NCBI RefSeq assembly: GCF_030691015.1
Contig: NZ_JAUYFF010000001.1
Location: 248,001-312,000, forward strand
Reading direction: 5' to 3'
Origin: Sulfuricurvum sp.
GTDB taxonomy: Bacteria; Campylobacterota; Campylobacteria; Campylobacterales; Sulfurimonadaceae
Length of the DNA: 64,000 bases
The notes beneath the pieces were generated by a model. The model was not told the DNA's origin. It saw only the letters and a program-made list of their open reading frames with translations, and searched no databases. Positions within the stretch are counted from its first letter, which is position 1, and each line of letters opens with the position of its first letter. The position numbers and the translations under genes are program-made. Below, one piece after another: positions 27,379 to 31,385 of the stretch.

Positions 27379-29259
27379 TTACTCGATTTCAGCGTCGATG
27401 ACGTCGTCATCTTTTTTCGCTGATGAAGATGCAGCAGCTTCGCCGCCTTCATTTTGTTTGTACATTTGCTCTGCCATTTTGTGGCTCGCATCTGCCAATT
27501 TTTTGGTCGCCGCTTCGATCTCTTCTTTGGTAGCATCGGTATTTTTCAACACTACTTTCAATTCTTCGAGAGCTGTTTCGATCGCAGCTTTTTCAGTTGC
27601 ATCGATTTTGTCTTCCATCTCTTTGAGAGATTTTTCGGTTTGGCTAGCAAGTGCATCGGCTTGGTTGCGAAGATCTACGATCTCTTTACGTGCCGCATCT
27701 TCAACTTTGTGAGCTTCCGCGTCTTGAACCATTTTGTTGATCTCTTCTTCACTCAATCCTGAACTTCCGGAAATCGTGATAGACTGAGATTTACCTGTCC
27801 CTTTATCGGTCGAGCTAACAGTTAGGATACCGTTGGCATCGATGTCAAACGTTACTTCGATTTGAGGTACACCGCGTGGTGCGGCAGGGATACCGGTAAG
27901 CTCGAACAATCCGAGAGATTTGTTATCGCGGGCGAACTCACGCTCACCTTGACCTACAGAAATACTAACCGCTGGTTGGTTGTCTTCCGCAGTCGAGAAC
28001 ACTTGCGATTTTTTAACCGGAATAGTAGTCCCTTTTTCGATGATTTTTGTCATTACGCCGCCGAGAGTTTCGATCCCGAGTGACAATGGAGTAACATCGA
28101 GAAGAAGTACGTCTTTAACGTCTCCGCGAAGAACTCCACCTTGGATAGCGGCACCTGCTGCAACGACTTCATCCGGATTTACCCCTTTGTTAAGAGTTTT
28201 TCCGCCGAATTCATCGGATACCATTTTTTGTGCGATTGGAAGACGAGTTGATCCACCGACCATGATAACTTCGTTGATTTCCTTGTTGCTAAGGCCTGCA
28301 TCTTTCATCGCTGTTTTGATATGGCTGATCGTCTCTTTAACGAGAGTATCGATCATCCCCTCGAATTTCGCACGGGTCAATTTCACAACTAAGTGTTTAG
28401 GACCTGATGCGTCTGCGGTGATAAACGGAAGATTGATCTCTGTTTCTTCTGCTGAAGAGAGCTCTTTTTTCGCATTTTCAGCCGCGTCTTTGAGACGTTG
28501 AAGCGCCATTTTGTCCGCTTTGAGGTCGATTCCGTGATCGGATTTGAACTCATTTGCGAGGAAGTCAACGATTTTATTATCGAAGTCATCCCCACCGAGA
28601 AACGCATTACCGTCGGTTGAAAGAACCTCGAAAGTTCCCTCAGAGATTTCAAGAACCGTAACGTCGAATGTTCCGCCCCCTAGATCGTAAACGAGAACTT
28701 TTTCATCCCCTTTAGAATCCAAACCGTATGCAAGCGCAGACGCAGTAGGCTCGTTGATGATACGAAGAACGTTAAGACCTGCAATCGTTCCCGCCTCTTT
28801 GGTCGCTTTACGCTGTGCATCATTGAAGTACGCAGGAACGGTAATAACCGCATCGCTTACCGCTTGTCCGAGGTAGCTCTCTGCATCCGCTTTCAATTTT
28901 GAAAGGATTTTAGCCGAGATCTCTTGTGGCGTATAGATTTTACCCGCAACGTCAACCGCAGCCATACCGTTTTTATCGACGATTTTATAGGTAACTTTGT
29001 CGTGCGCCTCTTTTGCTTTCTCTTCGTTCATCATAAGACCCATGATACGTTTGACCGAGTAGATCGTTTTATCCGGATTTGTGATCGCCTGACGTTTTGC
29101 AGGATCACCGACGAGGATTTCCCCTTTATCAGTAAATGCTACTACGGAAGGAGTAGTGTTTTTTCCCTCTTTATTCGGGATAATTTTTGCTTCGCCGCCT
29201 TCATAGACTGCAACACATGAGTTTGTTGTTCCTAAGTCGATACCAATAACTTTTGACAT
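27379..29259 (-). CDS. dnaK: Molecular chaperone DnaK (Hsp70)
   Basis: A 626-residue Hsp70 that binds and refolds proteins using ATP, with DnaJ and GrpE. The actin-like ATPase starts '[13 protein letters not shown]', with '[12 protein letters not shown]' and 'VGGSTRLP'; the interdomain linker '[13 protein letters not shown]' leads to the substrate domain; the C-terminus is the usual acidic 'DDVIDAEIE'. Full length. It lies 21 bases after grpE and shares its heat-shock promoter. Confidence 0.99.
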
Positions 29260-29280: not shown

Positions 29281-29820
29281 TTAGTTTGCAATTACGACCA
29301 TTGCATCCCGCAATGTTCGCTCTTTATATCGAAACCCTTTTTGAAAAGTGTTTACGATAGCTCCGCTCTCATGAGCATCACTGTCCACACGCTGTACTGC
29401 GTTATGAATATCGGGATTGAACGGTTCACTCTCATCGACAGGAGTTACCCCGTGTTTTTCGAGAACGCTTAAAAGCTGTTTCATCGTGAGTTCAACACCC
29501 TCTTTGAGCTTTTCAAGTAAAACATTTGCATCTGCTTCGATAGCCGTTGCGCCGATTGCCATAGAAAGCGAATCGACCACGGGGATCAAATCTTTTGCAA
29601 ATTTTTCGTTTGCGTACTCTAGCGCTTGATATTTCTCACGCTCAAGACGTTTTTTGATATTGTCGAAATCGGCATGTACGCGAGCGTACTTGTCTTTCAA
29701 CGACGCTAATTCAGCCGTAATAGTTTCTAATTCGCTCATACTCTCAACGACTGCTTCCTCACCCTCTTGGAGGGCTGGTTGTTCATCGTTGATCACTTCT
29801 TCATTTACTTCGTTTGACAT
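29281..29820 (-). CDS. grpE: Nucleotide exchange factor GrpE
   Basis: A 179-residue GrpE that releases ADP from DnaK. An acidic N-terminal region (~1-30), long coiled coil ('ELASLKDKYARVHADFDNIKKR') and C-terminal beta domain ('HNAVQRVDSDAHESGAIVNTF', 'LRDAMVVIA') are as expected. AAGGAG lies about 12 bases before the ATG. In many Campylobacterota hrcA precedes grpE; here the upstream gene is a divergent anion permease and hrcA is not present. Confidence 0.96.
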   Translation of the reverse strand: MSNEVNEEVINDEQPALQEGEEAVVESMSELETITAELASLKDKYARVHADFDNIKKRLEREKYQALEYANEKFAKDLIPVVDSLSMAIGATAIEADANVLLEKLKEGVELTMKQLLSVLEKHGVTPVDESEPFNPDIHNAVQRVDSDAHESGAIVNTFQKGFRYKERTLRDAMVVIAN

Positions 29821-29855
29821 AAGTTTATACGACTCCTTTTTTGAAATCCGGTGTT

Positions 29856-29885
29856 ATTATAATGAATTGAGTCACCTGTTGTCAA
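29856..29885 (-). promoter_or_regulatory. Promoter of grpE-dnaK
   Basis: On the minus strand TTGACA (complement of 29880-29885) and TATAAT (complement of 29856-29861) are both perfect and 18 bases apart, 35 bases before grpE. A HAIR-like repressor site overlaps the -35 and spacer. Confidence 0.75.
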
Positions 29886-29886
29886 G
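29866..29886 (-). promoter_or_regulatory. HAIR-like (HspR) operator over the grpE -35
   Basis: The minus strand reads CTTGACA-7-ACTCAAT, compared with the HspR consensus CTTGAGT-7-ACTCAAG: 11 of 14 bases match with the correct spacer. One arm coincides with the TTGACA -35 box, so part of the match could be due to the promoter itself. No CIRCE element (the HrcA site) is seen. Confidence 0.5.
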
Positions 29887-29911
29887 GGGTGTATGAATAT
29901 TTTTATGCAAA

Positions 29912-29938
29912 ATAGTTGAGTCTTATACTATCAACTAT
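29912..29938. promoter_or_regulatory. Second HAIR-like inverted repeat between grpE and the anion permease
   Basis: ATAGTTGA and TCAACTAT are perfect 8-base arms 11 bases apart. Its core GTTGAGT-7-TATCAAC again resembles the HAIR layout (10 of 14) and starts 49 bases from the first element. It lies between the divergent grpE and permease genes and could act on either. Confidence 0.4.
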
Positions 29939-29987: not shown

Positions 29988-31385
29988 GTGAATATCAAAC
30001 GGTTTTATCCTCCGCTATTATTGTTGCTCTTTGCACTAGGTGTGTGGTTTACCCCCCCTCCCCTCTCTATTTCCCTATCAACGTGGCATCTTTTTACGAT
30101 CTTCATCACCACTATCGGTGCTATTTTATTTAACATCCTCCCCATCATTGCCGCTGCTATCATAGCCCTTGCAGTCAGTGTATTGGCGGAAGTCATTGAG
30201 CCTGCCAAAGCCTATGCGGGATTTTCGGAGAGCTTTATCCTCCTTATCGTTGCGGCATTTTTGGTTTCCCATGCCGTCCACAAATCAGGGTTAGGAAAAC
30301 GGCTCTCTTTGCATATTATCCGTAAATTCGGACATTCGACTCTGGGGTTAGGATACAGTGTTATCGCCACCGATATCCTTATTGCCCCCGCGTTTCCGAG
30401 TAATACCGCCCGAAGCGGAGTCCTCTACCCCATCGTTTATGGTCTCGCCCATGACTGCGGTTCAAAAGTTGGAGATAATACCCATCGCAGAGCGGGTAGC
30501 TATCTGATGATGACTTCGATGGCCGGACTCACCATCTCCTCGGGTCTATGGCTTACGGCTATGGCGGTCAATCCTGTGGGAGTGGGAATTGCGGCGAAGA
30601 TGGGAATCCATATCACGTTTGGCAGCTGGCTTTTGTACGCGATTGTTCCGACCCTGATCGCGTTTGCCCTCATCCCGTGGATGCTGTATCGTATCTACCC
30701 CCCGGAAATGAAAGAGACCCCAGATGCCCCTCAAAAAGCCGCAGTTGCGTTGGAGCATATGGGGCGCATCAGCCGTAACGAGTGGATCACCGCCGGCGTC
30801 TTTGTCTCAATGTTGACCCTTTGGGCGCTCTCAGGGATATTTCCTATCGATAAAGCAGCGGTTGCCTTCGGAGGGTTGGGGATTTTGATGGCGACGAGAG
30901 TATTCGGGGTCGATGATTTCAGAAGTCAAGGAGAAGCACTCAGCACCCTCATCTGGTTTGCTATTCTCTTCGGTCTCTCTACCCAACTCGCCGAACAAGG
31001 GTTTATGAACGCCATCGCCGAACACTTTACTCACTACTTAGGAGGGCTTTCATGGATGTGGGTCTATCTTGTATTAATCACAATTTATGTGTTGATCCAC
31101 TACCTCTTTGTCTCTCAAAGTGCTCACCTTTTAGCATTGTTCGGTATCTTTTTAGCCATCGGTGTCCAATCGGGCGTACCGGGAGAGTTGATGGCGATGA
31201 TGCTGCTGTTTGCCACCAACTTTAATGCCACGATTACCCCGCAAGGCTCATCGTGCAATGCGATCTATCTCAGTTCCGGCTACATCAGCGCCCGTGATAT
31301 CTATATCTACGGCGGTGCAGTGACACTCCTGACCTTTCTCATTTTTATCCTTATCGGTACGCCGTGGATACTGGCTCTCGCATGA
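29988..31385 (+). CDS. DASS-family (SLC13-like) anion symporter
   Basis: A 465-residue permease with about 12 membrane helices. I start it at the GTG at 29988, with AGGGGA four bases upstream, because the 24 residues before it are unlike a membrane N-terminus. 'AFPSNTARSGVLYPIVYGLA' and, near the end, 'TPQGSSCNAIYLSSGYIS' are the paired SNT/ATP-like substrate motifs of DASS transporters. Probable substrate is a dicarboxylate such as malate or 2-oxoglutarate, or sulfate; sodium coupling is inferred from the family. The end overlaps the AsmA-like gene as ATGA. Confidence 0.88.
   Translation: MNIKRFYPPLLLLLFALGVWFTPPPLSISLSTWHLFTIFITTIGAILFNILPIIAAAIIALAVSVLAEVIEPAKAYAGFSESFILLIVAAFLVSHAVHKSGLGKRLSLHIIRKFGHSTLGLGYSVIATDILIAPAFPSNTARSGVLYPIVYGLAHDCGSKVGDNTHRRAGSYLMMTSMAGLTISSGLWLTAMAVNPVGVGIAAKMGIHITFGSWLLYAIVPTLIAFALIPWMLYRIYPPEMKETPDAPQKAAVALEHMGRISRNEWITAGVFVSMLTLWALSGIFPIDKAAVAFGGLGILMATRVFGVDDFRSQGEALSTLIWFAILFGLSTQLAEQGFMNAIAEHFTHYLGGLSWMWVYLVLITIYVLIHYLFVSQSAHLLALFGIFLAIGVQSGVPGELMAMMLLFATNFNATITPQGSSCNAIYLSSGYISARDIYIYGGAVTLLTFLIFILIGTPWILALA

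Follow-up and report, generated by a model that had tools for sequence, protein, structure and literature searches.

The grpE-dnaK operon of this Sulfuricurvum sp. raises the question of which heat-shock repressor, HspR or HrcA, controls it and through which operators. In the window, by which we mean the whole stretch of 64,000 nucleotides that was analyzed, the operon lies on the minus strand, with grpE (29281-29820) as its first gene and dnaK (27379-29259) as its second. Its sigma-70 promoter agrees with the consensus at 12/12 positions and consists of a -35 hexamer TTGACA (29885-29880, minus strand) and a -10 hexamer TATAAT (29861-29856, minus strand) separated by an 18-nt spacer. The original prediction placed a sequence CTTGACA-7-ACTCAAT, matching the HAIR consensus in 11 of 14 bases, over a perfect promoter, and this proved correct: CTTGACA-ACAGGTG-ACTCAAT occupies 29886-29866 on the minus strand and scores 11/14 against CTTGAGT-N7-ACTCAAG (the HAIR and CIRCE consensus sequences were taken from PMC7464140); the left arm includes the -35 box, and the right arm falls in the -35/-10 spacer. 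The second inverted repeat, GTTGATA-GTATAAG-ACTCAAC (29935-29915, minus strand; 10/14), was found where it had been placed, 49 bp upstream of the proximal one, and is enclosed by a perfect 8-bp inverted repeat (29912-29919/29931-29938) that gives an extended dyad at 29912-29938. The open reading frame upstream of grpE is not the usual hrcA, again as predicted, but a divergent Na_sulph_symp (DASS-type) transporter gene (29988-31385, plus strand, with a proposed GTG start; the listed frame opens at 29916), which stands outside the heat-shock unit and has in common with grpE an intergenic region of 167 bp that holds the distal repeat. The source assembly (2.33 Mb, 19 contigs) is 99.99% complete, and its GrpE is up to 98% identical to that of named Sulfuricurvum relatives. 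The two repeats are very probably operators of HspR, which of the two known heat-shock repressors appears to be the only one that the family retains.

The score of a single match does not decide this question. HAIR matches with at most three mismatches occur twice in the window against 2.17 expected, and a single match is therefore not significant alone; statistical weight for the 11/14 match was dropped. The looser pattern TTGA-N11-TCAA occurs seven times in the window against 2.29 expected, a number reached in 0/100 shuffles; genome-wide, it was seen in at least 151 places, against 36 for the reversed pattern. In the 2.33-Mb genome, the pattern TTGAGT-N9-TCAA and its reversed control are equally frequent, with 15 places each. 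The surroundings of six of the 15 places of the true pattern were inspected, and four of these lie upstream of chaperone units, namely grpE (two), clpB and cbpA-hspR. It is the comparison of relatives that decides the HAIR question.

Each of the four chaperone units examined in this genome has a HAIR-like site: in addition to grpE-dnaK, the cbpA-hspR operon carries one of 12/14, clpB one of 11/14 that overlaps the -35 box as at grpE, and groES one of 10/14 that ends 3 bp before the -35 box. Within 180 bp upstream, sites of at least 11/14 were found in the family at cbpA-hspR in 29/29 loci (a 30th locus, from another family, is cut by a contig end and cannot be scored), at clpB in 19/26 and at groES in 11/27, against a shuffle background of 0.6-0.8%. 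For clpB and groES, the loci were drawn from another sample of the family, comprising 31 genomes; 20 of these lie outside the hspR and hrcA searches and are classed as lacking HrcA by family. A convincing HAIR is absent from the family groES regions L130, L137, L138, L141 and L142 in a comparison for which two family regions were too short to be scored. The sites might be HspR operators while another regulator or a heat-shock sigma factor provides the main heat induction; this is unlikely, since the promoter is of a perfect housekeeping type and HAIR-like sites accompany every one of the four units.

The genome search revealed a single hspR gene, located downstream of a cbpA/dnaJ-like gene and encoding a 128-aa MerR-type protein that scores 117.2 bits against the NCBIfam model NF047375 (HeatShock_HspR; cut-off 105). 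An HspR match was identified in 29/29 family genomes and in 274/298 genomes of the order (E<=1e-15); the whole-genome searches for hspR and hrcA covered these 298 genomes, as distinct from the 80 named ones introduced below. For hrcA, PF01628 gave no match in the genome at E<=10. This model was rejected as a test of HrcA absence, because it exceeds its cut-off in 0/298 genomes of the order although an order-specific profile matches 191/298; the HrcA of this order is divergent, and the Pfam model is blind to it. Because the Pfam model fails in the order, the order-specific profile (A1) was built from an alignment of nine HrcA proteins encoded directly upstream of grpE in other families, two of which score 300.5 bits and 235 bits (just under the cut-off of 248) against NCBIfam NF003033. 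The A1 profile has no match in the Sulfuricurvum genome (E<=0.001) or in 27 more of the 29 genomes of the family (f1), the one weak match in the family being that of genome G158 (E=7e-4). Near grpE, the profile finds no HrcA in the 29 family and 80 named loci (77/80 of the latter with at least 900 bp of upstream sequence), whereas as a positive control it finds HrcA in 15/21 outgroup loci.

The operator of HrcA is distributed in the same manner. No CIRCE occurs within three mismatches in the 64-kb window (0.01 expected), as the original prediction had stated, and the best CIRCE score at the groES of this genome is only 10/18. The CIRCE core is found with at most one mismatch at four places in the genome against three for the control; the sole exact core, which falls within the coding sequence of a cytochrome-c-like protein, was read as chance. 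Outside the family, 38 dnaK-operon promoters from genomes with HrcA and 26 from genomes without it (by the A1 profile) were compared, of which 34 and 25, respectively, had a promoter of at least 11/12 (four f14 promoters and one f7 promoter were dropped below this value). A CIRCE of at least 13/18 is present at 34/34 of the former and at 0/25 of the latter. In the family, CIRCE scores are 8-13/18 at the dnaK promoters (3/109 reach 13, the rest 8-12) and 9-12 in 25 groES regions, compared with 11-17 at groES in 21 genomes with HrcA and 9-11 in 23/24 other regions lacking it; the exception is a draft f19 genome with a groES CIRCE of 15, which is also without a grpE match and in which hrcA may be present but unassembled. 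That HrcA still controls the operon through an unrecognized CIRCE, its gene having been missed by the searches, would be consistent with the divergence of HrcA in this order, the weak profile match in one family genome and the three promoters at 13/18, and yet is very improbable in view of a profile that matches 191/298 genomes but neither this genome nor the DNA around grpE in 109 family loci, and of family CIRCE scores of 8-13 at dnaK and 9-12 at groES, set against at least 13 at 34/34 dnaK promoters of outgroup genomes with HrcA. The suggestion that HspR rather than HrcA dominates is borne out and can be sharpened: of the two repressors, HspR is the only one found.

Conservation was assessed in 109 regions upstream of grpE, made up of the 29 loci of the family sample and 80 named ones, some of the total perhaps being of the same species. 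In these regions, promoters were picked by their -35/-10 score only (100 at 12/12 and nine at 11/12) to give 104 distinct segments. The invariance of TTGACA is partly by construction, because the promoters were picked by this score. The right arm played no part in promoter choice, and its CTCA is invariant in 104/104 distinct family promoters, the related genomes in these counts not being independent; after thinning to <70% identity, CTCA is retained in 31/31 representatives. The six columns of the right arm average 1.80 bits against 0.67 bits for the 7-bp gap, which has 35 different sequences, and the distance of the right arm from the -35 box is constant while the -35/-10 spacer is 17 in 66 loci and 18 in 43. 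The caveat that one arm shares bases with the -35 box holds for the left arm, which contains TTGACA, but not for the right arm, which lies in the spacer and is conserved on its own beyond the -35 box.

The distal repeat is equally fixed in its position. The best upstream HAIR of the 104 distinct promoters is located at -49 in 95, at -50 in eight and elsewhere in one, and the distal slot reaches at least 9/14 in 108/109 loci against 0.8% of random background offsets. The symmetry of its dyad resides mainly in the TT and A of the core (arm positions 2, 3 and 5 are symmetric in 91, 103 and 103 of 103 repeats) and is weak at arm positions 1, 4, 6 and 7 (35, 46, 21 and 15 of 103); at arm position 4, no dyad covariation was seen among the 103 distal repeats. 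The locus could be nothing more than a strong sigma-70 promoter, whose TTGACA makes the left arm while the remainder of the repeat is chance, as the perfect 12/12 promoter might suggest, together with the approximately two equally good HAIR matches that chance alone would produce in the window; this reading is largely refuted and retains hardly any probability, because CTCA is invariant despite the variable gap, because the distal repeat keeps its distance without serving as a -35 box, and because two genomes of one genus (G043 and G266 of g37) with no HspR match keep TTGACA but show ATCTTT and ATTCAT in the right-arm slot. It is also highly unlikely that the distal repeat, which does lie upstream of the transporter gene in the common intergenic region, serves that gene and is unrelated to grpE, because it is found at -49/-50 from the grpE promoter not only in 33/34 loci with a transporter neighbor but also in 74/74 loci without one that have at least 1 kb of upstream sequence. 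One contig carrying a grpE locus (L178) is filed under a Malikia MAG, probably through a binning error; its grpE product is 91% identical to the Sulfuricurvum-type GrpE.

Between the two operators, the stretch 29893-29910 (minus strand) contains single conserved positions, assigned with low confidence: A at 29894 is invariant in 104/104 and T at 29909 is found in 102/104 distinct promoters, while their neighbors vary. This stretch could possibly be a weak third HspR contact or an UP element, an A-rich promoter element. A regular third HAIR was considered and rejected: TTNA-N10-TNAA occurs between the operators in 32/104 promoters against 0.06% of the background but is absent from this genome, and an A-rich UP element would explain the pattern equally well.

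Across the order, the distribution of HAIR relative to hspR points both ways. The HAIR right arm is present at the dnaK-operon promoters of 34/34 outgroup genomes with HrcA and 24/25 without it (shifted by one base in the last). The two g37 genomes without an HspR match, in which the right arm is lost, have two good CIRCEs in each hrcA promoter (L258 and L259); for G266, an assembly of 230 contigs, the absence of HspR is deduced from its not being among the matches listed. In a further genome with no HspR match, G142, a CIRCE is present and the HAIR score is at best 9/14. Five drafts counted as hspR-negative (G022, G084, G288, G258 and G215; 130-320 contigs) keep a HAIR, which we put down, without proof, to incomplete assembly. 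In one f6 genus, a sequence CTTTATT-N7-ACTAAAG is common to the regions upstream of groES in L265, L266 and L267 (L266 differs in one base of the gap); the corresponding genomes have neither an HspR nor an HrcA match.

The distal operator is distributed less evenly than the proximal one. With a relaxed score of at least 12/14, a distal HAIR at -46 to -53 is found in 96/109 family promoters, in 17/25 others lacking HrcA and in 5/34 with HrcA; in family f6, all ten promoters without HrcA have a distal HAIR, and the single promoter with HrcA has a CIRCE instead. When counted by genome, with f1 left out, the association of the distal HAIR with HrcA loss is strong (17/25 versus 5/34; Fisher p 4e-5), whereas by family, with f1 counted, it is not significant (3/5 versus 2/13; p 0.10). 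On this by-family count, and with two groups lacking HrcA being without a distal HAIR, a causal role of HrcA loss in the gain of the distal operator was not upheld and stays a suggestion drawn from the sequence comparison.

At groES, the HspR site and the -35 box are separated by preferred distances. With a relaxed HAIR score of at least 12/14 and a promoter of at least 10/12, 89/136 regions pass (that of this genome, L127, and 88 others among L117-L376), and the gap from HAIR to the -35 box is 3-5, 13-16, 25-28 or 35-38 bp in 89/89 of them. These classes lie about one helical turn apart and hold in genomes with and without HrcA. When the HAIR cut-off is lowered to at least 11, 103/105 regions remain in the classes (the others have gaps of 29 and 50), and when the promoter cut-off is lowered to at least 9, 96/103 remain, the seven off-class regions being from f18, f11 and f23 with weak promoters. 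An 11-bp period gives R 0.88 on 27 distinct family-gap pairs and R 0.89 (p 1.8e-5; reached in 0/20000 random sets) on a conservative list of 11 spacing states made by family rather than on a tree. None of 300 permuted-arm decoys, run on the same 89 regions with HAIR masked, reaches the real R (the largest gives 0.56), and the share of decoy gaps in the four classes averages 44%, compared with 100% for HAIR. A reversed-motif decoy was found to be unsuitable, because 19/22 of its matches at gaps of 3-38 belong to one of the four classes, and the listed ones mostly sit 12 bp from HAIR itself. HrcA loss as the reason for the spacing was rejected, because the HrcA-less families f7 and f14 have a gap of 26, like many genomes with HrcA. 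If the helical stepping reflects mechanism, HspR must be oriented toward RNA polymerase or toward partners of the polymerase.

From the arrangement of these sites, we infer HspR binding, cooperativity, repression and heat induction as follows. HspR would be made from the separate cbpA-hspR operon under its own HAIR, and would occupy the proximal site of grpE-dnaK, covering the -35 box together with half of the spacer that follows it, as well as the distal site 49 bp upstream, presumably in a cooperative manner. Judging from its homologues, HspR bound at the proximal site would keep RNA polymerase off the promoter, with the distal site helping, and stress would inactivate or titrate HspR so that repression of grpE-dnaK is lifted. 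The HAIR-like sites at clpB, cbpA-hspR and groESL would bring the main chaperones under HspR. In the family, hrcA and its operator CIRCE appear to have been lost, and HspR would therefore be the only known heat-shock repressor of the two remaining; most likely, HspR alone represses the grpE-dnaK, clpB, cbpA-hspR and groES operons, as far as can be judged from sequence.

A more general model, to which we give somewhat less than an even chance, is that one repressor was replaced by the other through operator remodeling: after the loss of HrcA and CIRCE, an additional HspR operator, at a constant distance of 49 bp, may have taken over part of dnaK repression; in the mirror case, the HAIR arm was lost and a second CIRCE is present in the genus that lacks HspR; and HspR may act from a single side of the DNA helix with respect to RNA polymerase. 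The lineage is free-living and sulfur-oxidizing, and HspR seems to act there on chaperone genes without HrcA. The contribution of HspR itself, which is hard to separate in Campylobacter and Helicobacter, would be directly measurable in such a lineage, and the order supplies natural cases in which either repressor is gained or lost together with its operators.

Control by HspR and HAIR is known from Campylobacter, Helicobacter and Streptomyces (PMC7464140, PMC6102357). Among open-licence full texts, no work on Sulfuricurvum or Sulfurimonas was found that deals with control by HspR, loss of HrcA or phasing of HspR sites, and the available part of an article on Nautiliales treats only the abundance of hspR and hrcA and a possible HspR-HrcA link (PMC10696704). 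According to the reports on C. jejuni (PMC7464140) and H. pylori (PMC6032397), HrcA and HspR both act at the dnaK and groESL promoters. As in C. jejuni, where HspR binds several HAIR-like repeats of high and low affinity per promoter at cbpA, clpB, groESL and the dnaK operon, and where the high-affinity HAIRs help HspR onto the low-affinity ones (PMC7464140), the same four units carry sites here. By contrast, the dnaK operon of C. jejuni begins with hrcA, and HrcA occupies CIRCE-like sites where transcription from Phrc and Pgro starts (PMC7464140), whereas here grpE comes first and neither hrcA nor CIRCE was found. The cbpA-hspR operon, with a HAIR of its own, resembles that of H. pylori, where a HAIR covers the promoter of the operon and is essential for binding and repression (PMC6102357, PMC6032397), its mutation abolishing HspR binding and derepressing the cbpA promoter (PMC6102357), and co-encoded CbpA interferes with HspR binding (PMC6032397). 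Given the same gene arrangement, a feedback of CbpA on HspR is plausible here by analogy.

In Streptomyces coelicolor, HrcA is not known to act at the dnaK-operon promoter, and hspR lies inside the dnaK operon itself. HspR controls dnaK there through several inverted repeats (as cited in PMC6102357 and PMC7464140); unlike S. coelicolor, which has three repeats, two are clear here, and hspR is placed in a separate cbpA operon. The control proposed for grpE-dnaK is a known kind in variant form, HrcA-less and with two operators.
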